Assembly: GCA_902794535.1 (NCBI GenBank)
Contig: CADBHQ010000001.1
Span: 1 to 64,000, forward strand
DNA length: 64,000 bases
Direction of reading: 5' to 3'
From: Fibrobacter succinogenes
Lineage (GTDB): Bacteria; Fibrobacterota; Fibrobacteria; Fibrobacterales; Fibrobacteraceae
The notes beneath the pieces are model-generated. The model was not told where the DNA came from, ran no database searches, and saw only the letters and a list, made by a program, of their open reading frames with translations. Below are positions 2,876 to 55,019 of the stretch, in pieces (positions within the stretch are counted from its first letter, which is position 1; each line of letters opens with the position of its first letter). The translations under genes were made by a program, and so were the position numbers.

Positions 2876-4360
2876 TTAGAAGCTGAACACGGCTTCGATA
2901 CCGAATTTGAGGTTCAGATCTTCGCCATAGTCTTCGGTCGAAACATTGAAGGCGTGGTCTTCTTTTTCCCAGTCGTCACCCATGGGGAGAATGCCCATGG
3001 CGAAGGCGGTTACTTCGAGACCGTCAACCGGAGTGAAGTAGGAACGCAGGCCGAAGTTCAAAGTACCGAGGTCGGTATTTTCGGAGAGGGAGTTTGTGTG
3101 CAATTCGCCAACAAGGCCAAGGGTAATGACTTCGTTGAACTTAATGTCTCCTTCACCGTAGGCAAACATGTATTCAGGAATTTCGGGTGCGTGTATGGTC
3201 GGATTGCCATCATCTTCGTTGATGTATGCGTAGAAGAATCCACCCTTGATGCTTACGTTTGCAACCTTGAAGGTGGGTTCAGCCAAGAAGGTGTGGGTCA
3301 TATCCGGCTGGCTATTGGTGATGTTGTCTTTATGCAAACCGTATACGGCATGAATAGCGAACGGACCGAATTCGAGCGCGGCGTCCAAACCGGCATGGAA
3401 TATATTTTCTTCACCTTCTTGCCAGTTCTGGTAATGAACATACGGGCGGAGCATCTGGCCGGCAATGTCGAACTGGTAGGCACCATGGATATCGAAGCTT
3501 CGGCATACGTTATCTTTCGGATAGGGATTGCCGTTCATGTCATAGTTTTGGTGGTCGCAGGTATAATCAGACTCACTTCGGGTTAAACCGATGCCAAATT
3601 GCAGGCCGTAGAAGTCGACTTCGAGACCGCGAACGTCATGCTCGACCATGCCGGCGGCGTTCTCTGCCGGATCGATATAACCATAGTAGTTGAATACGCC
3701 TTCGGAATAAGTCAGGTCACCGAGCTTGAAGGCTAAATTTTCATTAGGCTGGAATTGAATGAATGCACCGTTGTAGTGAAGTGACGGCATGGAACCTTCT
3801 CCGTCGGCTTCGATTTCGACTTGTGCAGACCACTGGTCGTTAAACTTGACTTGGAAATCGAGGTCAACGGTTGACCAGAATGTGTGATAGAAATCTTGCT
3901 CGCTGTCGTTTTTCCAGTTGACGTAGGTGTCAAATTCAGCCTGACCGGAAATCTTGAATTCCATGGCCTTCTTGCTTTCCGGAGCGGGGTCGGCCTTAGA
4001 AATGTTCAGACGGTCAATGAGCGAGGCTTCGACAGGTTTGGACTCGTCAGCTTTGGCGACTTCTTCCGTTTTTGCCTCTTCAGCAGGAACTTCTACCTTC
4101 TCTTCTGCTTTGGGTTCTTCAGCCTTGGCCTCGGTCACCTCTTCTGTTTTCGGCTCTTCGGCCTTCGGGGCGGCTACGGTTGCGAAATCAGTTGCAGGGG
4201 CTGCGGCCGGCTGTTCTGCGGGTTGTTCCGCAGGCTGGGCTGCTTCGGTCTTAGCGGAGTCTGCGGGTTGAGTTGCAGGAGCCGCTGTCGGGGCTGCCTG
4301 TGCAAATGCGCTTGCGGCGGCAAGGCCGAGCACGATGGCGGAGAGTTTCATGGATTTCAT
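2876..4360 (-). CDS. Outer-membrane porin-like beta-barrel protein with Ala/Pro/Glu-rich linker
   Basis: Predicted 494-residue exported protein. It starts with a signal peptide (MKSMKL, hydrophobic core, AFAQA cleavage region), followed by roughly 100 residues of Ala-Pro then Glu-Lys-Ala-rich low-complexity sequence. Next comes a region of alternating polar and hydrophobic strands with many Tyr, Phe, Trp and Gly that ends in a terminal Phe, a signature of outer-membrane barrels recognised by BamA. The linker could span the periplasm or bind peptidoglycan. An upstream in-frame start at 4453 would run back through the terminator of the preceding operon, so the ATG at 4360, which follows AAAGGTGG, is chosen. 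It has its own promoter and terminator and is thus monocistronic. The substrate is unknown. Confidence 0.75.
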   Translation of the reverse strand: MKSMKLSAIVLGLAAASAFAQAAPTAAPATQPADSAKTEAAQPAEQPAEQPAAAPATDFATVAAPKAEEPKTEEVTEAKAEEPKAEEKVEVPAEEAKTEEVAKADESKPVEASLIDRLNISKADPAPESKKAMEFKISGQAEFDTYVNWKNDSEQDFYHTFWSTVDLDFQVKFNDQWSAQVEIEADGEGSMPSLHYNGAFIQFQPNENLAFKLGDLTYSEGVFNYYGYIDPAENAAGMVEHDVRGLEVDFYGLQFGIGLTRSESDYTCDHQNYDMNGNPYPKDNVCRSFDIHGAYQFDIAGQMLRPYVHYQNWQEGEENIFHAGLDAALEFGPFAIHAVYGLHKDNITNSQPDMTHTFLAEPTFKVANVSIKGGFFYAYINEDDGNPTIHAPEIPEYMFAYGEGDIKFNEVITLGLVGELHTNSLSENTDLGTLNFGLRSYFTPVDGLEVTAFAMGILPMGDDWEKEDHAFNVSTEDYGEDLNLKFGIEAVFSF

Positions 4361-4392
4361 TTTCCCACCTTTATGAAGGTTAATCTTTTCGA

Positions 4393-4421
4393 AATTTAAC
4401 AATGTAATTAGATCTTGACAA
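4393..4421 (-). promoter_or_regulatory. Sigma-70-like promoter of the porin-like gene
   Basis: On the minus strand TTGTCA (4416-4421), a 17-base spacer and TAAATT (4393-4398). It lies 33 bases upstream of the start codon and just after the terminator of the Mla operon. Confidence 0.6.
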
Positions 4422-4433
4422 AATAAACGAAAA

Positions 4434-4457
4434 AAAGTGCCTTTGGGGGGCACTTTT
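4434..4457 (-). terminator. Intrinsic terminator of the Mla operon
   Basis: AAAAGTGCC pairs with GGGCACTTTT around a short loop; on the minus strand the hairpin is followed by a T-run. It lies 25 bases downstream of the PqiC-like gene. Confidence 0.8.
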
Positions 4458-4481
4458 CTAGAGTCTCAATTGTTTTTATTA

Positions 4482-5075
4482 CTAGTTCTGGGACGAAATT
4501 CCCTGGAGAGTTTCTTCCATGAACTTGCCGAAGAGCTTGGAAATCGTTTCGGCGGTCGTTCTCGGCTCGCGGTCATTCATGCTCATTTTTTCGTCGAAGC
4601 TCTTTTCCCAAATGGCCTGGTCGCTTTCGGTCTTGCGGAAAGTCAGCTGCACCGCAAGGCGGGCGTATTGGTTGCTGCCTTCGTCAATTTCTTCGATGGC
4701 GACAATATTGCCCAAAAGTTCAAAGTCGGGCTTGCCTGTGGGCTTGGTTTCTACGGTCTTGAAAAGTCCACTTTTGGCGATGTATTCGCCTGCAACCTGG
4801 GCCATCATGTGCTCGGGGCGGCTGGCCCACAAGTCCAAATCATAGAACATAAAGTCGTAGGCCGATTCGCGGTAAACAATGTTTGTGCGCTGGTAGGCCG
4901 GTTCAATCGTGAACTTGCGCACCTGCAGGCGCTTGTCGGCGTATGCGCCGGCGGCGGGGGGTTGAATGTTTTCGACCGCAATGGTGTAATAGCGGGTGGG
5001 TTCGCTGGAACCGCCGCCCAGGCAGGCGGTCAAAGAAAGTGCGATTGCCGATAAGAGAATGAATTTCTTGAACAT
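4482..5075 (-). CDS. PqiC/YmbA-like lipoprotein, auxiliary component of an MCE transporter
   Basis: Predicted 197-residue outer-membrane lipoprotein: hydrophobic leader with lipobox LTAC (Cys 18), then a domain of the ABC-type transport auxiliary family (RYYTIAVENIQ near the N-terminus, then a long stretch on VYRESAYDFMFYDLDLWASRP). Known members pair with MCE proteins to move lipids between inner and outer membranes. The gene is last in a four-gene operon, three bases after the MCE-protein gene, which supports this role. The family is fairly clear from motif and context; the transported lipid is not known. Confidence 0.8.
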   Translation of the reverse strand: MFKKFILLSAIALSLTACLGGGSSEPTRYYTIAVENIQPPAAGAYADKRLQVRKFTIEPAYQRTNIVYRESAYDFMFYDLDLWASRPEHMMAQVAGEYIAKSGLFKTVETKPTGKPDFELLGNIVAIEEIDEGSNQYARLAVQLTFRKTESDQAIWEKSFDEKMSMNDREPRTTAETISKLFGKFMEETLQGISSQN

Positions 5076-5078
5076 TTA

Positions 5079-6005
5079 TCACTTCCTTCTAGACTTGTTT
5101 TCGGCGTGAATCAGCACCGACGGGTTATTCTTAATCTTTTGCGAGAATTCTTCGAGGTTTTCAAGCACGGCGTTGAGTTCCACCACGGCATCGCCGACCT
5201 GATCCTGATTCTTGTAAACCATCTGGTCGAGGCGCTTGGAAAGCTGGTTGATTGATTCCAGAGTCTGCGTGATGTTTTCGTTCATGCTCTTGGTGTCGAT
5301 GGCTTCAAGCTTTTCCTTGACCAAGTCCATGTTTTCGCTGGTCTTTGCCGCAATTTTAGCTTCTTCGATTTCGGAGAGAACGTTTTTCATGGAGGCGGCG
5401 GCATTCGAGATGTTATTGATAGGCTTGTTCAGGTTCTGAGTCATGTTGTTCAGATTCCTGGTGGCCCCTTCAAAATTCTTGATGGCGCTGCTGATATTGT
5501 CGGCGTTTTCAGACGAGAAAATCTTGTTGATGTTGGTCAAAAGGGAATCGATGTGACCGATAATGTCTGTGGCCTTGTTCGCCATGGCGTCAAAAGCCGT
5601 CTTTTCGGCCGGAACGAAGCCGCCATCTTGAACGTCGGGCTCGTCGAAGCGTCCGCCCGAAAGTACAATCTGCTTTTCGCCTGTCAGCGAAATGCCGTGT
5701 GTCATGCCGGCGCGGGTACCAATCTTAATAGGCGTGCCCTTGTTCACGCGGAAACGGACAATCACCTGGTTCAGGTTCGAAGAATCGATTTCGATTCCGG
5801 TCACGTTACCGACGTCGATACCGTTCAGCTTAACCTGAGCCTCGTTGTAAAGGCCTATCACGGACTCGTTAAAGATGGTGTAATAGCTGTCATATTCACG
5901 AGTCAAGTAGCGCGAAAGGACATAGCCCAAGAATACGAGGATAAGTACCCCGCAAAAGAGCATGAATGCGCCAATCTTTATTCGTTCGGAGCGTGTTGTT
6001 TCCAT
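5079..6005 (-). CDS. mlaD: MCE-domain substrate-binding protein of the Mla lipid transporter
   Basis: Inner-membrane-anchored periplasmic protein of 308 residues. One N-terminal membrane helix (about residues 12-32) is followed by an MCE domain (about 38-115, containing LNGIDVGNVTGIEI and a GxxxxI-rich beta core). A long predicted coiled-coil tail with repeated Asn, Leu and Glu completes it. MlaD proteins form hexameric rings that pass phospholipids between the MlaFE complex and the periplasm; the extended tail here may form the helical tunnel seen in longer MCE proteins. It sits 12 bases after mlaF. Confidence 0.88.
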   Translation of the reverse strand: METTRSERIKIGAFMLFCGVLILVFLGYVLSRYLTREYDSYYTIFNESVIGLYNEAQVKLNGIDVGNVTGIEIDSSNLNQVIVRFRVNKGTPIKIGTRAGMTHGISLTGEKQIVLSGGRFDEPDVQDGGFVPAEKTAFDAMANKATDIIGHIDSLLTNINKIFSSENADNISSAIKNFEGATRNLNNMTQNLNKPINNISNAAASMKNVLSEIEEAKIAAKTSENMDLVKEKLEAIDTKSMNENITQTLESINQLSKRLDQMVYKNQDQVGDAVVELNAVLENLEEFSQKIKNNPSVLIHAENKSRRK

Positions 6006-6017
6006 AGTTACTCCAAA

Positions 6018-6803
6018 TCAGTCTTTAAAATCAAAATGGTAATATTCATTGTTGTCTTCTTCTTTGGGGCATTGCCTGTTGAAGAAATGCTTGAGTATCG
6101 GGTCTTCGCTTTCGAGCCCTTGTTGCAAGGTCCCGTCCATCAAGATTCGCGCATCTTTAAGATAAATAAATCGATCGCAAATAATCTTGATGCTTTCAAG
6201 TTCGTGGCTCACAATGAGCATCGAAACCTTGAGCGTGTCGCGAAGTTCAAGCAAAAGTTCGTCGAGCGAACGTGCCGTTACCGGGTCAAGACCTGTAGAC
6301 GGTTCGTCGCAGAACAAAAGTTCCGGTTTTAACGCAATGGCGCGGGCAAGCGCTGCGCGCCTCTGCATACCGCCCGAAAGTTCCGAAGGGTACTTGTGGA
6401 AGGCATGCAACAGGTGGACTTTTTCAAGTCGGTCGGCCACAATGGCTTCCATCTGGCTCTTGGGCATGTAAGGCATGCTTCGAATCAGCGGGAGCATGGC
6501 GTTTTCTGCAACGGTTAAGTCAGACAGAAGTGCTCCATTCTGGAACAGCACTCCTGTACGCATACGAATTTCGCTGTCGAGGCCTTCGCGGGCGTCGAAT
6601 TTCTGCCCGAAGTAGGAAATAGTCCCGCTTTCGGACTTGGCAAGCTTTAGAATGTTGTTCAGGAGCGTCGACTTACCGCAGCCGGAACTTCCGAGAATCA
6701 TGCGGATTTCGCCCTTGCGGACATCGAACGAAATGTCGTCCAGAATGAGCTTTCCGTCGTAGCCGGCTTTCAGGTGTTCCACTTTCAAGACAGGATCTTC
6801 CAT
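6018..6803 (-). CDS. mlaF: ATP-binding protein of the Mla-type lipid ABC transporter
   Basis: Cytoplasmic ABC ATPase of 261 residues powering the Mla-type transporter. Visible are Walker A (GSSGCGKST, 38-46), the signature LSGGMQRR, Walker B followed by DEPSTGLD, and the switch His in VSHELES. It is eight bases downstream of the STAS-permease gene. Sequence style and gene order (permease, ATPase, MCE, lipoprotein) identify it as MlaF-like rather than a generic ABC subunit. Confidence 0.9.
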   Translation of the reverse strand: MEDPVLKVEHLKAGYDGKLILDDISFDVRKGEIRMILGSSGCGKSTLLNNILKLAKSESGTISYFGQKFDAREGLDSEIRMRTGVLFQNGALLSDLTVAENAMLPLIRSMPYMPKSQMEAIVADRLEKVHLLHAFHKYPSELSGGMQRRAALARAIALKPELLFCDEPSTGLDPVTARSLDELLLELRDTLKVSMLIVSHELESIKIICDRFIYLKDARILMDGTLQQGLESEDPILKHFFNRQCPKEEDNNEYYHFDFKD

Positions 6804-6811
6804 TTGTTCTC

Positions 6812-7876
6812 CTAGTAGAAAATGAAACTGAACGCGCAGTCAGTGATAATGATTGCAGAAATAGAAGTCACAACGCTCGAGGTGGTCGCGTGTCCCACGG
6901 CTTCGGCGCCGCCAGTCGCATTCAAGCCTTCGTTACAGGCAATCAGAGTGACTAGCCAACCAAAAACAATCGATTTGACGGTACTCTTGAGGAAGAGTAT
7001 GGGCGGAATTCCATCGCGAATGGACTGGAAATAGTTCCAGAACGAAATGTCGAAGAAGAAGTAGGCAATCAAGAAGCCGGCAAGGCAACCTGCAATCGAG
7101 GCGCAGAACGAAAGAAGCGGCGTGCAGAGCGACATGGCGATAAAGCGGGGGACCACCAGGTACTGCACCGGCGAAATAGCCATAGTCTTGATGGCCTTGA
7201 TTTCTTCGCAGACGGACATGTTTGCAATTTCGGCTGCAATAGCACTGCCCGAACGGCCTGCCAGAATAATTGTCGTCAAAAGCGGGCTAATTTCGGCAAA
7301 AATTAGGTAGCCAAGCCCAGAAGCCAAGTATGAACCGCCACCGACGGCCTTGAGCATAAAGGAACTCTGGAGTGCCATGGTAAAGCAGATGAGGGCGACC
7401 ATCAAGAAGCAGATTCCGGTCGCTTCGCTTCCGAGGCGGTTGATTTGCTTGGCGGTGCCGCCGAATTTAGATCTGCCCTTGTCGAAGGGGCCGCAAACGC
7501 TCCAATAAATGGCCATATTCAGCAAAACGAACACTTCGGCCACACTTTTTCCGAATCGGTAGCCGATATCGCCCAATTTTTCAACAAAACCGACCTTTCT
7601 GAGGTGGTCATTTGCCGGAATTTTCTGCTTTTTGAGGCCTTGAAGGTGTGCTTTGACTTCATCATTGAAGTGTAAAAGCGTGAGTTTATTCCCAGAGGTT
7701 TCGCTGATGTCTGCCAAAAGGGCGAAAAAGGCGTCTGCGCTGTAATCCATGCGCTGTAACGCGGATCCGTCGAGACAAAGCGGCTCGTTTCGGAGCGTGC
7801 GCCTGCACTCCCGCAACAAATCTTTGCTGTTTGCGGCCGTAAGAGCGGCGGGGAGTGTAATCAGTTTTCCTTCCAT
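6812..7876 (-). CDS. mlaE: MlaE-type permease fused to an N-terminal STAS domain
   Basis: Inner-membrane permease of 354 residues. Residues 1 to about 105 resemble a STAS domain (MlaB-like), and about 130-354 form the MlaE domain with several membrane helices and the typical stretch LAGRSGSAIAAEIANM. In E. coli the STAS subunit MlaB is a separate protein; here it is fused to the permease. The frame is open back to 8047, but that would overlap hflX by 77 bases and add a basic non-conserved tail, so the ATG at 7876 (MEGKLITLPAA) is chosen although its Shine-Dalgarno is weak. First gene of the Mla operon. Confidence 0.87.
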   Translation of the reverse strand: MEGKLITLPAALTAANSKDLLRECRRTLRNEPLCLDGSALQRMDYSADAFFALLADISETSGNKLTLLHFNDEVKAHLQGLKKQKIPANDHLRKVGFVEKLGDIGYRFGKSVAEVFVLLNMAIYWSVCGPFDKGRSKFGGTAKQINRLGSEATGICFLMVALICFTMALQSSFMLKAVGGGSYLASGLGYLIFAEISPLLTTIILAGRSGSAIAAEIANMSVCEEIKAIKTMAISPVQYLVVPRFIAMSLCTPLLSFCASIAGCLAGFLIAYFFFDISFWNYFQSIRDGIPPILFLKSTVKSIVFGWLVTLIACNEGLNATGGAEAVGHATTSSVVTSISAIIITDCAFSFIFY

Positions 7877-47775: not shown

Positions 47776-49653
47776 ATGGAAAAAAATATTCTCACGAATA
47801 GATTTTGTGGCGTATTTGTATGCGCTCTTATGTTGTTTGCAACACAGGTTTTTGCTGCTTGGGACGGCTCTTCCATGGAAGAGCCGGAAATTCAAGAGAT
47901 AGAAGGCAAAAACTTTTATTTGATTAATGACGAAGCCGAATTGGCATGGTTCGCTAACGAAACCAATAAAAATCCTGGCGCCAGGTTGAATATCAATGCC
48001 AAGTTGAATGCCGACTTGGACATGAACCACAAATTGTGGATTCCGATGGCTGCAGGCACGGGTAAAGTTGCGTTCGAGGGAATTATTGATGGTGACGGCC
48101 ATGTTATTTCGAATTTGTACATCAATAGCGATGAAGTTGCCGCTGTAAAAAAAGAATTCGCTCAGAATCTTGGTTTTGTAGGTGTCTTGGGCAATGGCTC
48201 GGTGAAAAACATTGTCTTTGAAAATGTGGATATTGTAACATCGACTAATGCTGGCTCCATTTTATCTAGTAAGACGAATCAGATCTCTGTCGGTGCCGTT
48301 GTGGGGTGGCTGGCCGATAAAAATCCGGGTGGTGTAGTGTCGGCTTGCTATGTGTCTGGATCCATTCATGCTACTGGTGACGGTCAAGGTATTGGAGGCA
48401 TTGTTGGAAATGGCAAAAATGGAACGATTGAGCATTGCTTGAGTGCTGTTACGATTCTGGCTGAAGGCAATGATGCTTTTGTTGGCGGTATTATTGGGAT
48501 TACGAAGGCAACCTTGTCGGTGAAATCTTGCGTGTACGATGGTGAGGGATTGACCAATTTGGGCAATGGTGTGACGGGTGCTGTTGTCGGCAATCATATT
48601 AGTGGAGCACTCACTACCTCTAACAATTACTATGATGAAGACTTGAACGGTATCGGCAATGGTTCTGAATCTGGTAATACCAAGGTTGATTTGGTAAATG
48701 CCGAAGGTATCGCATGCGCTTTGAATGACGGTGAAATGCTTGACGGTTATTGTTCCGTTGCGTCTCCGTGGTCAGTGGGCGAAAAGTCGTTGGCCTTGAA
48801 TGGTTATGGAGCGGCTACAATTTCTGTTTTGACGGTTAAGGTGACCCAGTATGGTGCCGTGAAGATTACGGAATACCCCGATAAGACAGTTGCTGAAATC
48901 AATGGCTCTTACATGGGACCGGATACAGTAAAAATTGAAAAGGATATCCTTGTTGATCAGGTGGTGTTCAACCGCACATTTAATGTGAACAAGATGTCTT
49001 CGATGATGATGCCTTTCTCAATTGATACGGCAAATGTGAGTGGCGCTGTAATCTATGAATTTAAGGAAATGGCGATTGTTGATGATGTGTGGAAGGTGAA
49101 GGTCCGTAAAGCGGCAACTGTACTCGCCAATACTCCTTACATGGTTTTGCCGAAGGCCCAAAATATCACCTTCAATATTGAAAAACCGGTGACGTTCAAT
49201 ACGACTGTTAAAACGGATAAGGTTTTGAGTACGGGTTCTTGGGAATTCAAGGGTGTGTATGCCTATACCACGTTTGAAAATGACCCTGAACTTGGCCGAA
49301 TTTACGGCTTTGCTGCAACGGAAAGCGATGGCGTTAAGGTGGGGCAGTTTGTAAAGGTGGGTAGTGATGCTTGGGCCCCCGCCATGCGCGCCTATTTGGT
49401 TCACCATGCTGCAGCGACTGCTGCTGCCAAAACGCGTGGTAGTTTGGAGCATTTTGGTTTGGGAAACCCGCTTGAAATCGACATTGAATTTGTTGATGAC
49501 AACAACAATGTGGTTGAATCGGGTAAACTCAACACGGTGACCGGTGAAGTTCGTATGGATCGCTGGTTTGATTTGAATGGTCGCAAACTGAATGCGAAAC
49601 CAACGACTCGCGGAACCTATTACCACAACGGAAAAAGAGAAATCATTAAGTAA
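47776..49653 (+). CDS. Secreted GLUG-like repeat protein with C-terminal sorting-like tail
   Basis: 625 residues: signal peptide (FATQVFAA), then LINDEAELAWFANETN and repeated GxxGxxxNGSVKNIVFENVD, GAVVGWLADKNPGGVVSACYVSGSI, GGIVGNGKNGTIEHC and VGGIIGITKA units, the look of GLUG beta-helix repeats (about 80-240). A beta-rich part follows, ending in DRWFDLNGRKLNAKP to YHNGKREIIK, which resembles sorting or anchoring tails of Bacteroidetes-type surface proteins. ATG at 47776 follows GAGG; a TTG at 47767 is rejected. The 49-codon peptide gene starts 11 bases after its stop, before any terminator, so the two are cotranscribed. Confidence 0.75.
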   Translation: MEKNILTNRFCGVFVCALMLFATQVFAAWDGSSMEEPEIQEIEGKNFYLINDEAELAWFANETNKNPGARLNINAKLNADLDMNHKLWIPMAAGTGKVAFEGIIDGDGHVISNLYINSDEVAAVKKEFAQNLGFVGVLGNGSVKNIVFENVDIVTSTNAGSILSSKTNQISVGAVVGWLADKNPGGVVSACYVSGSIHATGDGQGIGGIVGNGKNGTIEHCLSAVTILAEGNDAFVGGIIGITKATLSVKSCVYDGEGLTNLGNGVTGAVVGNHISGALTTSNNYYDEDLNGIGNGSESGNTKVDLVNAEGIACALNDGEMLDGYCSVASPWSVGEKSLALNGYGAATISVLTVKVTQYGAVKITEYPDKTVAEINGSYMGPDTVKIEKDILVDQVVFNRTFNVNKMSSMMMPFSIDTANVSGAVIYEFKEMAIVDDVWKVKVRKAATVLANTPYMVLPKAQNITFNIEKPVTFNTTVKTDKVLSTGSWEFKGVYAYTTFENDPELGRIYGFAATESDGVKVGQFVKVGSDAWAPAMRAYLVHHAAATAAAKTRGSLEHFGLGNPLEIDIEFVDDNNNVVESGKLNTVTGEVRMDRWFDLNGRKLNAKPTTRGTYYHNGKREIIK

Positions 49654-49664
49654 AAGAGGCAATT

Positions 49665-49814
49665 ATGTTTTTTGAAGAAAAGAAAAAGTACATTGCTCCT
49701 GAGATGGATGTAATTGATATGGAATGCCGTACTATTTTATGTGATAGTGGTAATTCTGATCAAGAAGTTATTGATATTATTGATGATGGTAGCGAAAGCT
49801 CTGCAGAAGATTAA
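49665..49814 (+). CDS. 49-residue peptide, candidate precursor of a modified peptide
   Basis: Starts at an ATG after AGAGG and ends in TAA. The N-terminal half is a leader-like KKKYIAPEMDVIDMECRTILCDSG; its pattern of an aromatic, Pro, hydrophobic-acidic stretch, then Leu-Cys-x-Ser-Gly resembles short precursor-like peptides near PqqD-type genes in Bacteroidetes. The C-terminal half is acidic and Ser-rich with no Cys (NSDQEV to SSAED). It is followed by a strong terminator and then by genes for a nucleotidyltransferase, kinase-like protein, peptidase, PqqD domain and exporter. That it is their substrate is inferred from position and composition. Confidence 0.7.
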   Translation: MFFEEKKKYIAPEMDVIDMECRTILCDSGNSDQEVIDIIDDGSESSAED

Positions 49815-49840
49815 GTTTTAATACAGGCAAAATTTGCATT

Positions 49841-49865
49841 AGGCCCCCTTGGGGGCCTTTTTTTA
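49841..49865 (+). terminator. Intrinsic terminator after the peptide gene
   Basis: AGGCCCCC / GGGGGCCT with a two-base loop followed by seven T. It separates abundant peptide mRNA from the downstream enzyme genes, which would then be read through or from their own promoter. Confidence 0.9.
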
Positions 49866-49881
49866 TTTTATCTTTACGCGC

Positions 49882-50994
49882 ATGGGTATGGTTCTGAAAA
49901 AGACAGATAAACTCTTGTTTGAACTCTTGCGGTTTGCGCTTGATACGACTGGCGAATTGCAGTGCTTTAAAGAGGCTCCTTCTGATGCGCAGTGGAAGTC
50001 GATTTACGAGCTGGCCAAACGCCAGTGCGTTCGCGGGGTGGCTTTTTCGGGAATCAAGAAACTGCCTGAAAATGTTCGGCCTGCAAGGGCTTTGCTTTTG
50101 CACTGGTCGCTTGATGCCGAGGCAATTGCCGGCAAGAATAAGCTCATGGACCAAGAGGGCGCGCGCCTGACTCAAATTTTTGAGGGCGCGGGCCGCAAGA
50201 ATGCCATTTTGAAGGGCCAGGCGAATGCGCGACTTTACCCAGACGTACTTTCGAGGCAAGCGGGCGATATTGATATTTGGGTCGAAGGCGGTCGTAAGAA
50301 CGTTTCCGAATTGCTTTACAAATTGAATTTGTTGAATGCGGAAACCGATGACCATGCTTATTCGCTGCACCACATTCATTTGCCTGAGACGAAAGACGGA
50401 ATCGCTGTCGAAGTGCATTTTAAGCCGGCGTCGGGAATCCCGTTCCGCAATGGTGCATTGCAAGAATTTTTGAATGAAGAAATTCGCAAGGCTGAAAAGG
50501 TGCCCGAGGGCTTTTATTCGCCGTCTATCAAGTTTGCGCTCTTGATGCAAATGGCGCACTTGCAGCAGCATTTTTATAGCGGTGGCCTTGGCCTTAGGCA
50601 GTATATGGATTACTTGATGCTGCTTCGGCATTCTACCGAAAGCGATCGCAGTGCGGCGGTAGCTATCATGAAACGCTTGAGCATGATGCGTGCATGCGGT
50701 GCTGTCATGTGGCTGTTGCAACAGGTTTTCGGGCTAGAACAAAACTTAATGCTTTGTGCGCCTGACCGCAGGCGCGGTGAACGCCTTTTGAAACTCGCAC
50801 TTGCGTTCGGCAATTTTGGCCAGTACAAATCGAAACCCAAGAATGTTTTTGTGCGCTGGTACAAGGACCGCTTGCAAGCGCTTTCTTGGTTGCCGTTTGA
50901 CCCGGTGAATGCGATTTTCAAGGAACTCAAGTATTGGCGTGCAACGATTTCGCTGATTCCGAAGCGCATTAAACGCAGGCGGATTGCTTTATGA
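49882..50994 (+). CDS. Nucleotidyltransferase-fold protein (PF14907-like)
   Basis: 370 residues. The core motif ILKGQANARLYPDVLSRQAGDIDIWV (Lys-Gly at 111-112, GDIDIW 128-133) is that of the uncharacterised nucleotidyltransferase family often found in peptide-modification clusters, including some lasso-peptide loci. It could transfer a nucleotide to a peptide or sugar. The C-terminus is basic (PKRIKRRRIAL). Start at 49882 or the ATG two codons later; an earlier TTG lies in the terminator and is rejected. Its stop overlaps the next start by four bases. Confidence 0.8.
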   Translation: MGMVLKKTDKLLFELLRFALDTTGELQCFKEAPSDAQWKSIYELAKRQCVRGVAFSGIKKLPENVRPARALLLHWSLDAEAIAGKNKLMDQEGARLTQIFEGAGRKNAILKGQANARLYPDVLSRQAGDIDIWVEGGRKNVSELLYKLNLLNAETDDHAYSLHHIHLPETKDGIAVEVHFKPASGIPFRNGALQEFLNEEIRKAEKVPEGFYSPSIKFALLMQMAHLQQHFYSGGLGLRQYMDYLMLLRHSTESDRSAAVAIMKRLSMMRACGAVMWLLQQVFGLEQNLMLCAPDRRRGERLLKLALAFGNFGQYKSKPKNVFVRWYKDRLQALSWLPFDPVNAIFKELKYWRATISLIPKRIKRRRIAL

Positions 50995-51872
50995 TGGAAA
51001 ATTTTTATAAGGTGGCGGAACATGTGTTTGCCGTGTCGGCGCAGGCAACTGTTGGCGACAAGATTTTTGCGGAATGCATGGACAATTACGCTCCTTTTGC
51101 GATTGAAAAGTCGGACGATTGCCTTTTTGCGTTGAATGTGCAATGTGGCGAGGCTCCCGAATACACCGAAGAAACCCGCCAGGAAGAAGAAGGCCAGCAG
51201 ATTATTTGCGGGCTTACAGCTAAACAGGAATCGGCTTTTGATTTTCGCTTGTTTGGTGAGGCGATGGGCGTGTTAGTTTGTTCGACTGACTATAAAAAGG
51301 CTGAACTTTTCGTGCCCCAAAATCAAAAATTGAGTTCGCTCAAGTTTGCGGTGAACAATTCGCTGATGGTGCTGTATGCAATCGCGACGGCACCTTACGA
51401 TACGGCCTTGTTCCATGCGGCGGTCGTGAGTTACAAAGATCGCGGCTACCTGTTCTTGGGCAAGAGTGGTACGGGCAAGAGCACGCATGCAAGGCTTTGG
51501 CTCAAGCATGTTGCGGGCACAGACCTTTTGAATGACGACAATCCGGTGGTTCGCATTTTTGATGGCGCACGAGCGGTTGTTTATGGCTCGCCGTGGAGCG
51601 GCAAGACACCTTGCTACAAGAATCAGGAATTTGCGCTGGGCGGCTTTGTGTTGCTTTCGCAGGCTCCCTACAACAAGATTGCCCGCTTGCGGGGCGTGCA
51701 GGCTTTTGCTGCGCTTGTTCCGTGCATTTCGGGCAAACGCTGGGAACGCGTGATTGCCGATGGGCTTCACAAGACTGAAAATGCACTTGCCATGAATGTA
51801 CCGGTGTGGTATTTGGAATGCTTGCCGGATGAAGCTGCCGCAAAGTTGTGCTGCGAGACGGTTTCTGCTTAA
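50991..51872 (+). CDS. HPr-kinase-like P-loop protein of a peptide-modification locus
   Basis: 293 residues. The C-terminal two thirds resemble HprK and PEP-carboxykinase-type kinases: FHAAVVSYKDRGYLFLGKSGTGKST (Walker A 157-165), LLNDDNPVV (Asp pair 182-183) and GSPWSGKTPCYKN. Homologues of this kind in lasso-peptide clusters phosphorylate Ser or Thr of a precursor; the Ser-rich tail of the 49-residue peptide offers possible targets. True HprK is unlikely because HPr-phosphatase motifs are not evident. Coupled by overlap to the nucleotidyltransferase gene. Confidence 0.8.
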   Translation: MMENFYKVAEHVFAVSAQATVGDKIFAECMDNYAPFAIEKSDDCLFALNVQCGEAPEYTEETRQEEEGQQIICGLTAKQESAFDFRLFGEAMGVLVCSTDYKKAELFVPQNQKLSSLKFAVNNSLMVLYAIATAPYDTALFHAAVVSYKDRGYLFLGKSGTGKSTHARLWLKHVAGTDLLNDDNPVVRIFDGARAVVYGSPWSGKTPCYKNQEFALGGFVLLSQAPYNKIARLRGVQAFAALVPCISGKRWERVIADGLHKTENALAMNVPVWYLECLPDEAAAKLCCETVSA

Positions 51873-51880
51873 CAGGATTC

Positions 51881-52336
51881 ATGATGCAAAAGAAAGATGA
51901 TGCAATGATTCTTTCCGAGGCGATTCGCCTGGTGAGCGAAGGTATCGAAGTAATCTTCCCGGTGAATGGGCGGAGCATGCGCCCGTTTATCGAGGGTGGC
52001 CGCGACAGCGTAGTGCTTGTTCGTCCGGAAAACGTGAAACCGATGGATGTGGTGCTCGCGAAGACTGATGACGGTCGGTTCGTGATTCACCGCGTTATGG
52101 AAATGACGGGCGACCGTGTGACTTTGATGGGCGACGGCAATTTGCTTGGTCGCGAACATACTGAATGTAAACAAATTTATGCTAAAGTAACGCATGTTGT
52201 GCATCCAAAAGGTTACAAAAGATCTCTTTACACGCCTTTTATACAATTTGTCCAAAGAATGTGGGTGAGGCTTTTACCTTTGCGTCGTTATTTGCTTAAA
52301 TTATATAGAGTCTACATTCGAATCCGGAACCTCTAG
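51881..52336 (+). CDS. S26-family signal-peptidase-like serine protease
   Basis: 151 residues. Ser 32 in VNGRSMRPFI and His 70 in RFVIHRVMEM fit the Ser-His dyad of ER/SipW-type S26 peptidases; MGDGN follows as in that family. There is no clear N-terminal membrane anchor; instead the C-terminus is basic and amphipathic (QRMWVRLLPLRRYLLKLYRVYIRI) and may lie on the membrane. In this setting it could remove the leader of the exported peptide. Start at 51881 after CAGGA, eight bases past the kinase stop. Confidence 0.72.
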   Translation: MMQKKDDAMILSEAIRLVSEGIEVIFPVNGRSMRPFIEGGRDSVVLVRPENVKPMDVVLAKTDDGRFVIHRVMEMTGDRVTLMGDGNLLGREHTECKQIYAKVTHVVHPKGYKRSLYTPFIQFVQRMWVRLLPLRRYLLKLYRVYIRIRNL

Positions 52337-52350
52337 AAGGAGAGTACACC

Positions 52351-52620
52351 ATGCACATTAGAAAAGGATTTGTTCTGCGCGAAGTCTGCGGTGAACAGGT
52401 AATTATGGGCGAAGGCGTTGGCGCTCTCGATTTCGGGAAGCTCCTTTGCCTGAACGAAACGGCGTCTTGGCTTTGGGCGCGTGCAAGCGAACTCGGCGAA
52501 TTTACCGTCGAAGCTCTTGCCGATGCGCTCTGTAGCGAATACGACGTTGCCGCCGACGATGCCTTGAACGATGTCAAGTGCATTGTTTCGCAGTGGCAAA
52601 ACGTGAACGTAGTCGAATGA
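52351..52620 (+). CDS. PqqD-family peptide-recognition protein
   Basis: 89 residues with the PqqD/RRE pattern: FVLREVCGEQVIMGEGVGALDFGKLLCLNETASWLW, then a helical half (VEALADALCSEYDV, DALNDVKCIV). Such domains grip the leader of a ribosomal peptide and hand it to modifying enzymes. Strong Shine-Dalgarno AAGGAGA. The stop overlaps the ABC transporter start (ATGA). Confidence 0.85.
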   Translation: MHIRKGFVLREVCGEQVIMGEGVGALDFGKLLCLNETASWLWARASELGEFTVEALADALCSEYDVAADDALNDVKCIVSQWQNVNVVE

Positions 52621-54239
52621 AATACCTTTCGTGGTTATGGAATAGGACGGAAGGATTCCGCCTGAACATAGCGCTCCGCATTGTATTTGGTGTGGGGCGA
52701 ATTTCGCTTGGGCTGTTGATGGTATGGCTCAGCAAGCGCTTTATAGACGAAACGATTCGCACAGGTGGTCAAGACGATATTGTGCGCATGATTGCGTTGC
52801 TTGTGGCAACGGTCGTGGGTGCGATTGTCTTGCGCATTGTGTTTTATTATATGACGAATGTGGCCATGGTCCGCCAGTCGAATCGCTTGCGTTTGCAAGT
52901 GTTCGAGGGCTTGTTCTTGCGTAAGCTTTACGCGGGGGCGGAACTGCATTCGGGTGATGTGGCGTCTAGGCTTTCGAAAGATATCGAGTCGGTGTCGACT
53001 ACGACCATGGAAACTTTGCCGCAAATGATTGTGACGGCGCTACAGCTGGTGGGCGCGTTCCTTTTGATGCGCTGGTTTGACCCGCGGCTTGCATGGGCGT
53101 TGCTGTTGCTTACGCCGGTAGCGATTGTGCTCGGAAAGTTGGTGTCTCGCAAACTCAGGAACATGACGCTTGCGATTCGTGAACGCGAATCGAAAATCCA
53201 GATGCAGGTGCAAGAGGGCGTGGAACACAATGTGCTCATGCGTTCGCTCGAAAGCGAGAACTGGGTGGCGGGTCGCCTGAGTGACATGCAACAACACTTG
53301 GAAAACGATGTTCTGCGCCGTACGCGATTTACCACGCTTTCCCGTTTTGCGCTCGGGTCTGCTTTTGGGCTGGGTTACTTGCTCGCCTTTATTTGGGGCG
53401 GCCTCGGGCTCCGCGATGGAGCGATTACCTTCGGTATGATGACTTCGTTCTTGCAACTGGTGGGCCAGATTCAGCACCCGATTCTTTCGATTTTGAACAT
53501 GGTGCCGCAAGTGGTGCATACGACGGCGAGCATTGACCGCCTGGAAGATCTTGAAAAATCCAAGGAGCCTGAATGTGACGGAACGCCTATGGCGCTTGAA
53601 GGTTCGCTCGGGGTACGACTCGAGAACCTGCATTTTGGCTATGCGGCGGGCAGGCACGAGGTCTTGGAGGGATTCAGTCACGATTTCGAACCTGGTACAA
53701 AGACGGCGATTATGGGCAGGACTGGTGCCGGAAAGACGACGCTGTTCCGGTTATTGCTTGGCTTTGTAAGGCCCGATAGCGGGCGAATGTTAATTTATTC
53801 AAGCTCCGAGGTGTGTGCGATTGGTAAAGAAACTCGCACGAATTTTGTGTATGTGCCGCAGGGCAATACTTTGCTGAGCGGGAGCGTGCGTTTGAATTTA
53901 CAGCTGGCCAAGCCTGATGCGAGCGAACAGGAAATGTTGCTAGCTTTGCATGCGGCCTGTGCCGACTTTGTGCTGGATTTGCCCGATGGCTTGGATACTG
54001 AAATCGGTGAGCGCGGCCGTGGCCTGAGCGAGGGCCAGGCGCAGCGAATTGGAATTGCTCGCGGGCTTTTACGGCCCGGGAATGTTTGGCTGTTTGACGA
54101 GGTGAGTTCTTCGCTCGATGAATCGACGGAGCGCGAATTGTTCGAAAGGCTGTTTGCAACTTACCCCGACAAGACCATGATTTTTGTGACGCACCGTTCG
54201 GCAATGTCTGAAATTTGCGACGAAGTCGTTCGACTATGA
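52617..54239 (+). CDS. ABC exporter (membrane and ATPase domains in one chain)
   Basis: 540 residues: an exporter-type membrane domain (about 1-300, five or six helices) and an ATPase domain with Walker A GRTGAGKTT, signature LSEGQAQRIGIARG and Walker B WLFDEVSSSLDE. No C39 peptidase domain is present, so leader removal must come from elsewhere; the adjacent S26-like gene could do it. Overlaps pqqD-like and DUF5662-like genes by four bases each side, making a coupled unit. Confidence 0.88.
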   Translation: MKYLSWLWNRTEGFRLNIALRIVFGVGRISLGLLMVWLSKRFIDETIRTGGQDDIVRMIALLVATVVGAIVLRIVFYYMTNVAMVRQSNRLRLQVFEGLFLRKLYAGAELHSGDVASRLSKDIESVSTTTMETLPQMIVTALQLVGAFLLMRWFDPRLAWALLLLTPVAIVLGKLVSRKLRNMTLAIRERESKIQMQVQEGVEHNVLMRSLESENWVAGRLSDMQQHLENDVLRRTRFTTLSRFALGSAFGLGYLLAFIWGGLGLRDGAITFGMMTSFLQLVGQIQHPILSILNMVPQVVHTTASIDRLEDLEKSKEPECDGTPMALEGSLGVRLENLHFGYAAGRHEVLEGFSHDFEPGTKTAIMGRTGAGKTTLFRLLLGFVRPDSGRMLIYSSSEVCAIGKETRTNFVYVPQGNTLLSGSVRLNLQLAKPDASEQEMLLALHAACADFVLDLPDGLDTEIGERGRGLSEGQAQRIGIARGLLRPGNVWLFDEVSSSLDESTERELFERLFATYPDKTMIFVTHRSAMSEICDEVVRL

Positions 54240-54787
54240 AAATGCATCCGCTTAAACACTTTATAACGATTACGAAGCACCGGAACGAGGTGATTCGGCT
54301 TTGCTTTAAGGCCGGAATCGGGTTCCAAGGCTTGTTCCACGATTTGTCGAAGTACAGCCCGACTGAATTTATTCCGGGGGCCAAGTATTACATGGGCGAT
54401 CAGTCGCCTAACAATGGGGAACGCAACGACAAGGGCTATAGCTTGGCTTGGATGCATCATAAGGGCCGGAACAAGCACCATTTTGAATTCTGGTATGACT
54501 ACGAAATGGCGACCAAGAAGCTTGTGCCGATTGATATGCCGGACCGCTACATTAAAGAGATGTTCTGCGACCGTGTGGCAGCATCCAAGACGTACAACAA
54601 GGCGGGCTATACGCAAGAATCTCCGCTTTTGTATTTGACTAAAAGTACGGCTCGCGAAAAGATGACTGAAAAAACTTACCGCAAGTTGCTTTACTTGCTC
54701 AAGATGCTTGCTGAAAAAGGCGAAAAAGAAACGCTTGCGTTCATGAAACGGACGAAGCTGCTGCCGGAAGACATGAGCTGTCTTTAA
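54236..54787 (+). CDS. DUF5662-like protein of the peptide locus
   Basis: 183 residues, mostly helical. FHDLSKYSPTEF and WMHHKGRNKHHFEFWYDY contain His and Asp residues spaced as in HD-like metal proteins, and the pattern matches the uncharacterised DUF5662 family. It is translationally coupled to the exporter (ATGA), so it probably belongs to the same system, but the family also occurs alone and its function is unknown. Confidence 0.72.
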   Translation: MKMHPLKHFITITKHRNEVIRLCFKAGIGFQGLFHDLSKYSPTEFIPGAKYYMGDQSPNNGERNDKGYSLAWMHHKGRNKHHFEFWYDYEMATKKLVPIDMPDRYIKEMFCDRVAASKTYNKAGYTQESPLLYLTKSTAREKMTEKTYRKLLYLLKMLAEKGEKETLAFMKRTKLLPEDMSCL

Positions 54788-54874: not shown

Positions 54875-54976
54875 ATCCGTTGACCTTTCTTTTTTATCTC
54901 AGGTGGGCTGGTCTGCCACCCTGTCATCCATTGACCTTTCTTTTTTATCTTAGGTGGACCGGTCTGCCACCCTGTC
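54875..54976. repeat. Two tandem copies of a 51-bp repeat
   Basis: Units 54875-54925 and 54926-54976 differ at four positions. Each holds TTGACCTTTC, a T-run, then GGTGG...CCACC able to form a hairpin, and ends in GTC before ATCC. The shared GTCATCC core also appears in repeats inside three genes of the window. Confidence 0.8.
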
Positions 54977-55019
54977 ATCTGTATAAGAATATATAAAAAA
55001 TAAACAAGAATGTCAAGAG

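Follow-up and report, generated by a model that had tools for sequence, protein, structure and literature searches.

A locus in Fibrobacter succinogenes, at positions 49,665 to 54,787 of a 64,000-nucleotide window (the whole stretch analysed here: positions 1 to 64,000 of contig CADBHQ010000001.1, assembly GCA_902794535.1, forward strand), raises the question of what is made by a short peptide gene and an adjoining operon that encodes a nucleotidyltransferase, an HprK-like kinase, a signal-peptidase-like protein, a PqqD-type protein and an ABC exporter. Our analysis supports, with good confidence, a pathway for ribosomally synthesized and post-translationally modified peptides (RiPPs) of the type that yields linear polyphosphorylated peptides (LPPs; Popov et al. 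2026, Nat Commun 17:6633, PMC13381572), because the gene set is the LPP core set, for which phosphorylation and cleavage dependent on a RiPP recognition element (RRE) have been shown; its layout appears to be that of a hub with spokes, the spokes being precursor genes scattered over the genome. Three points go beyond what the papers found describe: the system occurs in Fibrobacterota and Bacteroidota, one hub stands against many dispersed precursor genes, and the precursors are paired with secreted proteins. With an LPP-type pathway in these hosts, the class would no longer be confined to Bacillota but would include two phyla that are abundant in the rumen, and many small proteins without annotation (KKxYxxP...LLxGS), which form a large family, would gain a context.

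Enzymes of the hub and their LPP counterparts

All genes described in an earlier note on this DNA were found at the positions it gave, and the six genes downstream of the peptide gene do overlap or nearly touch, their joints being 4-bp overlaps or gaps of 11–14 bp; the genes, gene parts, and hairpin of the window described below all lie on the plus strand. The first gene encodes a PF14907 nucleotidyltransferase (NTP_transf_5, LppN-like; 49888–50994, E 9e-42) with the motif AGDIDIW. The second encodes an HprK-like Ser kinase (LppK-like; 50991–51872), whose library matches were weak (HprK_rel_A, 5e-4; Hpr_kinase_C, 0.03) and whose Walker A sequence GKSGTGKST and PWSGKTPC motif were invariant in 16 homologues. 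The third encodes an archaeal-type signal-peptidase-like leader peptidase (S24/S26-like, LppS-like; 51884–52336; archaeal signal peptidase I, 2e-6), in which Ser31, His69, and Asp84 are invariant among 18 homologues from two phyla, 16 of which matched the archaeal signal peptidase model; the protein has no N-terminal membrane helix, and its structure model shows a LexA/signal-peptidase fold. It is followed by a discrete PqqD-type RRE (LppB/B1-like; 52351–52620; PqqD match, 7e-12), the sole PF05402 match in its own genome, and by an ABC half-transporter assigned from library matches (MsbA/LppD-like exporter; 52617–54239), which lacks a C39 peptidase domain, as the earlier note had observed.

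This gene set corresponds closely to that of LPP biosynthesis. In Paenibacillus, LppK phosphorylates core Ser3, LppS (Ser29, His68, Asp93) cuts off the leader in the presence of the RRE LppB, a YxxP motif is needed for binding, and phenotypes of LppK and LppS deletions have been reported (PMC13381572). The window locus contains the LPP core genes, the nucleotidyltransferase being optional in relatives: a discrete RRE, an HprK-like kinase, a SipW/archaeal-type Ser-His-Asp peptidase, an NTP transferase, and an MsbA-like exporter, together with a YxxP leader precursor with a conserved Ser (the third core residue if cleavage follows LL) and no cyclase at the locus; the peptidase has the LPP-type Ser/His/Asp set, Asp84 being the candidate counterpart of Asp93 of LppS. 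A PqqD-guided, non-lasso peptide pathway with kinase, nucleotidyltransferase, S26-type peptidase, and exporter, as proposed in the earlier note, is thus supported by the biochemistry of the Paenibacillus set; its biochemical guess was right in outline, although the pathway was not undescribed, the LPP precedent having been published in May 2026 (PMC13381572).

Paeninodin-type lasso clusters also combine an HprK-like kinase, a nucleotidyltransferase, a discrete PqqD-type RRE, and an exporter, and the leader resembles a lasso leader, so that a lasso pathway whose B2 peptidase and cyclase genes lie at a distance from the locus has to be weighed; we consider it highly improbable. PF13471 (lasso B2) had no match in the 19 genus genomes searched, and the lasso reading was rejected on this ground; an LppS-like, signal-peptidase-like enzyme stands in place of B2, the leader carries YxxP rather than WxxP, and no Asn-synthetase-like cyclase is encoded at the window locus, PF00733-type proteins not having been searched for genome-wide. 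The Thr at the penultimate leader position, which is usual in lasso precursors (PMC10368454), is not conserved here, where LL or IL stands at the predicted leader end.

The enzymes are widespread in the genus and largely keep their arrangement. Kinase homologues were found in 22 of 25 genus genomes (one sample, own genome included), RRE homologues in 61 of 67 genus genomes and in one genome of another genus of the family. Of 97 loci from Fibrobacter and Bacteroidota, partly redundant and each with enough downstream sequence, 63 have the order kinase-peptidase-PqqD-ABC. The precursors of that one genome outside the genus (G128, locus L061) resemble those of G109, so they may stem from a recent transfer or from misbinning of a contig. 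The nucleotidyltransferase, which the earlier note had listed among the six genes, is optional, with zero to two copies in related loci; loci with an adjacent precursor have it more often (Fisher p 0.017 and 0.027).

Precursor peptides scattered around a single RRE

The window peptide gene (49665–49814) encodes 49 residues with a YxxP leader, an ILCDS motif, and an acidic tail, and is followed, before the enzyme operon, by an intrinsic-terminator-like hairpin (AGGCCCCCTTGGGGGCCT-TTTTTTA, 49841–49858; 49841–49868 with its T-run), which is stable but unremarkable for its composition by fold energy (z −1.1); the peptide gene of 49 codons with its own terminator is as the earlier note had described it. 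Its position, the gap of only 11 bp to the preceding gene for a secreted protein (47776–49653), and the terminator behind it make it the last gene of the upstream secreted-protein unit and not the first of the enzyme operon. The peptide, which the earlier note had placed with the six genes, is hence paired with the secreted protein encoded in front of it, and the majority of precursors are encoded at other sites of the genome.

Profile A1, built from peptides of these loci, matched the window peptide with E 2.1e-13 in its own genome, this peptide (P0001) being itself a seed. Comparison of 116 distinct peptides gave the leader pattern KKxYxxPxMxVVxLxxxxxLLxxS with nearly fixed spacing: Y and P are near invariant, the distance from Y to LL is 16 in 86 of the 105 peptides having the LL motif, and Ser stands at +20 in 75%. 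The leader is basic and the tail acidic; identity between peptides is 41% in the leader and 9% in the tail, where peptides differ about as much as shuffled tails, as is usual for a leader followed by a hypervariable core. The only match of the peptide profile among PDB chains was the TfuA leader in 6jx3 (MEKKKYTAPQL against mkKKeYekPeM), a weak one of 11 residues (E 0.23); TfuB1/TfuA, which also provided the best solved RRE match, belongs to fusilassin, an actinobacterial lasso system.

By analogy with LppA, in which the cut lies two residues ahead of the conserved Ser (PMC13381572), and from the conserved spacing, the leader is predicted to comprise residues 1–25 (KKKYIAPEM...RTIL; 49665–49739) and the core to be CDSGNSDQEVIDIIDDGSESSAED (49740–49811), with Ser28 as core Ser3. 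Cleavage after Leu25 and phosphorylation of Ser28 would thus give an exported acidic core of 24 residues, with a calculated monoisotopic [M+H]+ of 2499.98, 2579.95 with one phosphate, and 2659.91 with two. The window precursor shares with LPP precursors the YxxP leader, the Ser near the predicted cut, and the hypervariable C-terminus; its family consensus differs in detail from the LPP pattern YxxPxVLxHQxIxFETxxS, since the leader ends in LL or IL where the LPP leader has FET, and in most cases exceeds it by two residues.

Matches to profile A1 were found in 46 of 51 genus genomes, with up to 13 per genome and on many contigs, and the window's own genome has eight precursors and one PqqD protein (RRE); this distribution, together with the gene order kept in 63 of 97 loci, places the system far beyond chance. 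The earlier note had looked to a conserved peptide near homologous clusters; the peptide family proved strongly conserved, but the peptide is often not nearby. Among Fibrobacteraceae genomes at least 90% complete, precursors occurred in 39 of 39 RRE-positive and 0 of 15 RRE-negative genomes. In the genus of Prevotella sp. tf2-5, 20 genomes have the ABC-linked RRE type, and 19 of these have precursors; the mean is 6.6 precursors per genome in genomes of this type as compared to 1.3 in the 99 others (p 9e-9). From these co-occurrences of genes, each Fibrobacter genome appears to have one RRE hub that serves up to 13 scattered precursors, as compared to one to three precursors per cluster in LPP systems; a single hub with many scattered precursors is a RiPP layout that cluster-based genome mining would miss. 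Several observations count against this dependence of precursors on a hub: the 39/39 versus 0/15 test is uncorrected for phylogeny and only three RRE-negative genomes of the genus are more than 90% complete; two genomes hold peptides without an RRE being found (G134, 85% complete; G151, 65% complete) and one less complete genome holds an RRE without peptides (G129); and in Prevotella a few peptide matches are often present in genomes that lack the ABC-linked RRE type, G432 having nine and no strong RRE.

The same data bear on the possibility that the peptides are exported unmodified, in the manner of bacteriocins or pheromones, while the kinase and nucleotidyltransferase act elsewhere, e.g., on a surface polysaccharide. 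The same genes are often found within capsular polysaccharide loci in Bacillota (PMC13381572), the nucleotidyltransferase is missing in many loci, and the neighbouring open reading frames (ORFs) of related loci are annotated only in part, so that polysaccharide genes may be present there; however, the almost perfect co-occurrence of peptides and RRE, the Ser conserved near the predicted cut, and the precedent of the LPP kinase make this explanation unlikely.

Secreted partners and a proposed mechanism

The gene in front of the window peptide encodes a secreted partner of 625 residues (47776–49653), whose homologues precede peptides in other genomes and whose N-terminus, judged by eye, is signal-peptide-like (MEKNILTNRFCGVFVCALMLFATQVFA-A); the protein gave no Pfam or NCBIfam match. 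Alignment delimits a C-terminal domain (CTD) of ~270 residues (48838–49650, tail DLNGRKLNAKPTTRGTYYHNGKREIIK) that is common to secreted partners; no Pfam or NCBIfam family was found for the CTD either, and its all-beta structure model (pLDDT 85) had no PDB match below E 0.07 in a fold search. Of the 37 precursors in four genomes, 35 lie immediately behind a gene for a CTD protein and one lies immediately in front of such a gene, and every CTD copy of these genomes longer than a bare tail adjoins a precursor; in a second sample of eleven genomes, 59 of 75 precursors follow a CTD gene (~84% across both samples). Among 16 genomes tested, the full-length CTD was present only in RRE-positive ones; it was absent from ten RRE-negative genomes and from two outside the family, and tail-only matches were seen in G001 and G013. 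This pairing of most precursors with secreted CTD proteins is a further difference from LPP systems, and it recurs in Prevotella, where the partners are more diverse and the partner sometimes lies behind the peptide. In G087, the homologous site, flanked as in the window by the ilvD side and a methyltransferase gene, has just a CTD-peptide pair, and the enzymes are encoded on another contig; pair and hub are therefore separable units. Two precursors (L206, G003:C10; L278, G009:C2) lie behind a non-CTD protein with a shorter, related-looking tail (KLYDLLGRIKGFFNIQ and KLYDLLGRIKGFLNIQ, respectively).

The LPP-type pathway would, in our proposal, run as follows. All precursors of the cell would be bound by the single RRE through their conserved leader (KKxYxxPxM); in the LLxxS motif, the conserved Ser (Ser28 here) would be phosphorylated by the HprK-like kinase; the signal-peptidase-like Ser-His-Asp enzyme, with the RRE presenting the leader, would cut after the LL or IL pair; and the core, short and acidic, would leave the cell through the ABC transporter. 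In loci that have one, the nucleotidyltransferase may add a further tailoring step tied to the adjacent peptide, and the precursors would form the spokes, mostly directly behind the gene for a Sec-type secreted protein with the common CTD.

Outside the cytoplasm, the core is likely to act on the secreted CTD protein or together with it. More tentatively, and with less than even confidence, we propose that each phosphorylated core, rather than being a natural product released on its own, is a dedicated partner of one secreted protein, bound or attached to the CTD of that protein, with a role in folding, anchoring, or control of activity, and that the hub is a genome-wide service for surface modification or assembly common to rumen Fibrobacterota and Bacteroidota. 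The data are consistent with this proposal, but the covariation of core and CTD says little either way: 22 pairs gave r 0.20 (p 0.003), larger sets of 61 and 41 pairs gave a weak signal (r 0.07–0.09, p 0.04–0.06), and the leader showed none. In the second Fibrobacter sample, 16 of the 75 peptides have no adjacent CTD gene. The weak covariation and these unpaired peptides detract from the proposal. These two points (r 0.09, p 0.056 for the 41 non-redundant pairs) and the more diverse, sometimes downstream, Prevotella partners would fit a cassette of peptide and secreted protein that is inherited as one unit, with a core that does not act on the partner, a possibility that we take seriously without thinking it probable. 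CTD copies beyond a bare tail, however, always stand beside a peptide in the four genomes and are lacking in the ten RRE-negative ones, and the pairing is therefore tighter than simple hitchhiking needs. The biological role of LPPs has been stated as unknown (PMC13381572); that the precursors so regularly adjoin genes of a single family of secreted proteins allows a specific role of the peptide to be tested and represents a first hint of function.

Relatives in other phyla and neighbouring features

A scan of genome contigs with the kinase alignment gave at least 589 confirmed relatives; among the best 80, 15 are named Fibrobacter and the others Prevotella, Segatella, and other Bacteroidales, with ~49–61% identity. 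Bacteroidales account for several hundred of the close relatives. In a quick kinase tree, the Fibrobacter kinases fall among the ABC-linked kinases of Bacteroidota, which suggests that there was transfer between the two phyla, and Bacteroidota, as a second phylum, repeat both the gene order and the peptide-partner pairing. The gene set was not described in a study of Bacteroidales RiPP mining (PMC10352776) or in one of structure-based RRE discovery (PMC12710340), within the open-access literature.

Bacillota are represented in this comparison by one Butyrivibrio plasmid only. This plasmid of the rumen species Butyrivibrio fibrisolvens (pNP243, L250) carries an LPP-like cluster at 5713–7736, with genes for a kinase, a 57-residue YxxP ORF (MKKAYVKPELKAS...), PqqD, and an S24/S26 peptidase, beside ABC and capsule-type genes. 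It bears on whether the Fibrobacter system is related to Bacillota LPP systems by descent or is an independent assembly that resembles them and arose on its own from lasso-like RREs, an origin that we regard as rather unlikely. Three points favour the independent origin: the RRE profile matched TfuB1 (6jx3, E 1.4e-3) best, followed by PbaB1 (0.035), and LppB (9x8z, 0.73) worse than either; the distance from Y to Ser is usually 20 residues here and 18 in the Bacillota consensus; and the hosts differ in phylum, the LPP paper stating the class to be restricted to Bacillota (PMC13381572). On the other side, the whole enzyme set is the same, and the kinase, RRE, and peptidase of the Butyrivibrio plasmid were matched by Fibrobacter profiles at a locus that also has a YxxP ORF.

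A second type of locus in Prevotella has homologous kinase, peptidase, and RRE genes in the same order; it differs in having neither an exporter nor an adjacent peptide and forms a separate clade in the kinase tree. It is apparently vertical and probably present in most Prevotella. At eight such loci (L230–L235, L246, and L247), genes for an RpoD-like sigma factor and a small secreted protein precede the kinase-peptidase-RRE homologues; at L233, no RRE ORF passed the display filter. Homologues of the RRE, nucleotidyltransferase, ABC transporter, kinase, and peptidase were also seen in a different order at 2958–7309 of a Phocaeicola massiliensis plasmid record (OY725995, L251; 77 kb, without annotation).

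Two further candidates were dismissed. A defence-system reading was dropped, as PADLOC gave generic ABC/ATPase matches only. The DUF5662 gene (54236–54787, E 2e-35), which lies in the operon here and which the earlier note had counted as part of the system, is not conserved with it, being next to 6 of 39 Fibrobacter loci (the window and five others) and 0 of 42 Bacteroidota loci, and its membership was rejected. Directly behind the operon, at 54875–54982, the window contains two near-identical direct repeats of ~50 bp (TTGACCTTTCTTTTTTATCT.AGGTGG.C.GGTCTGCCACCCTGTCATC).

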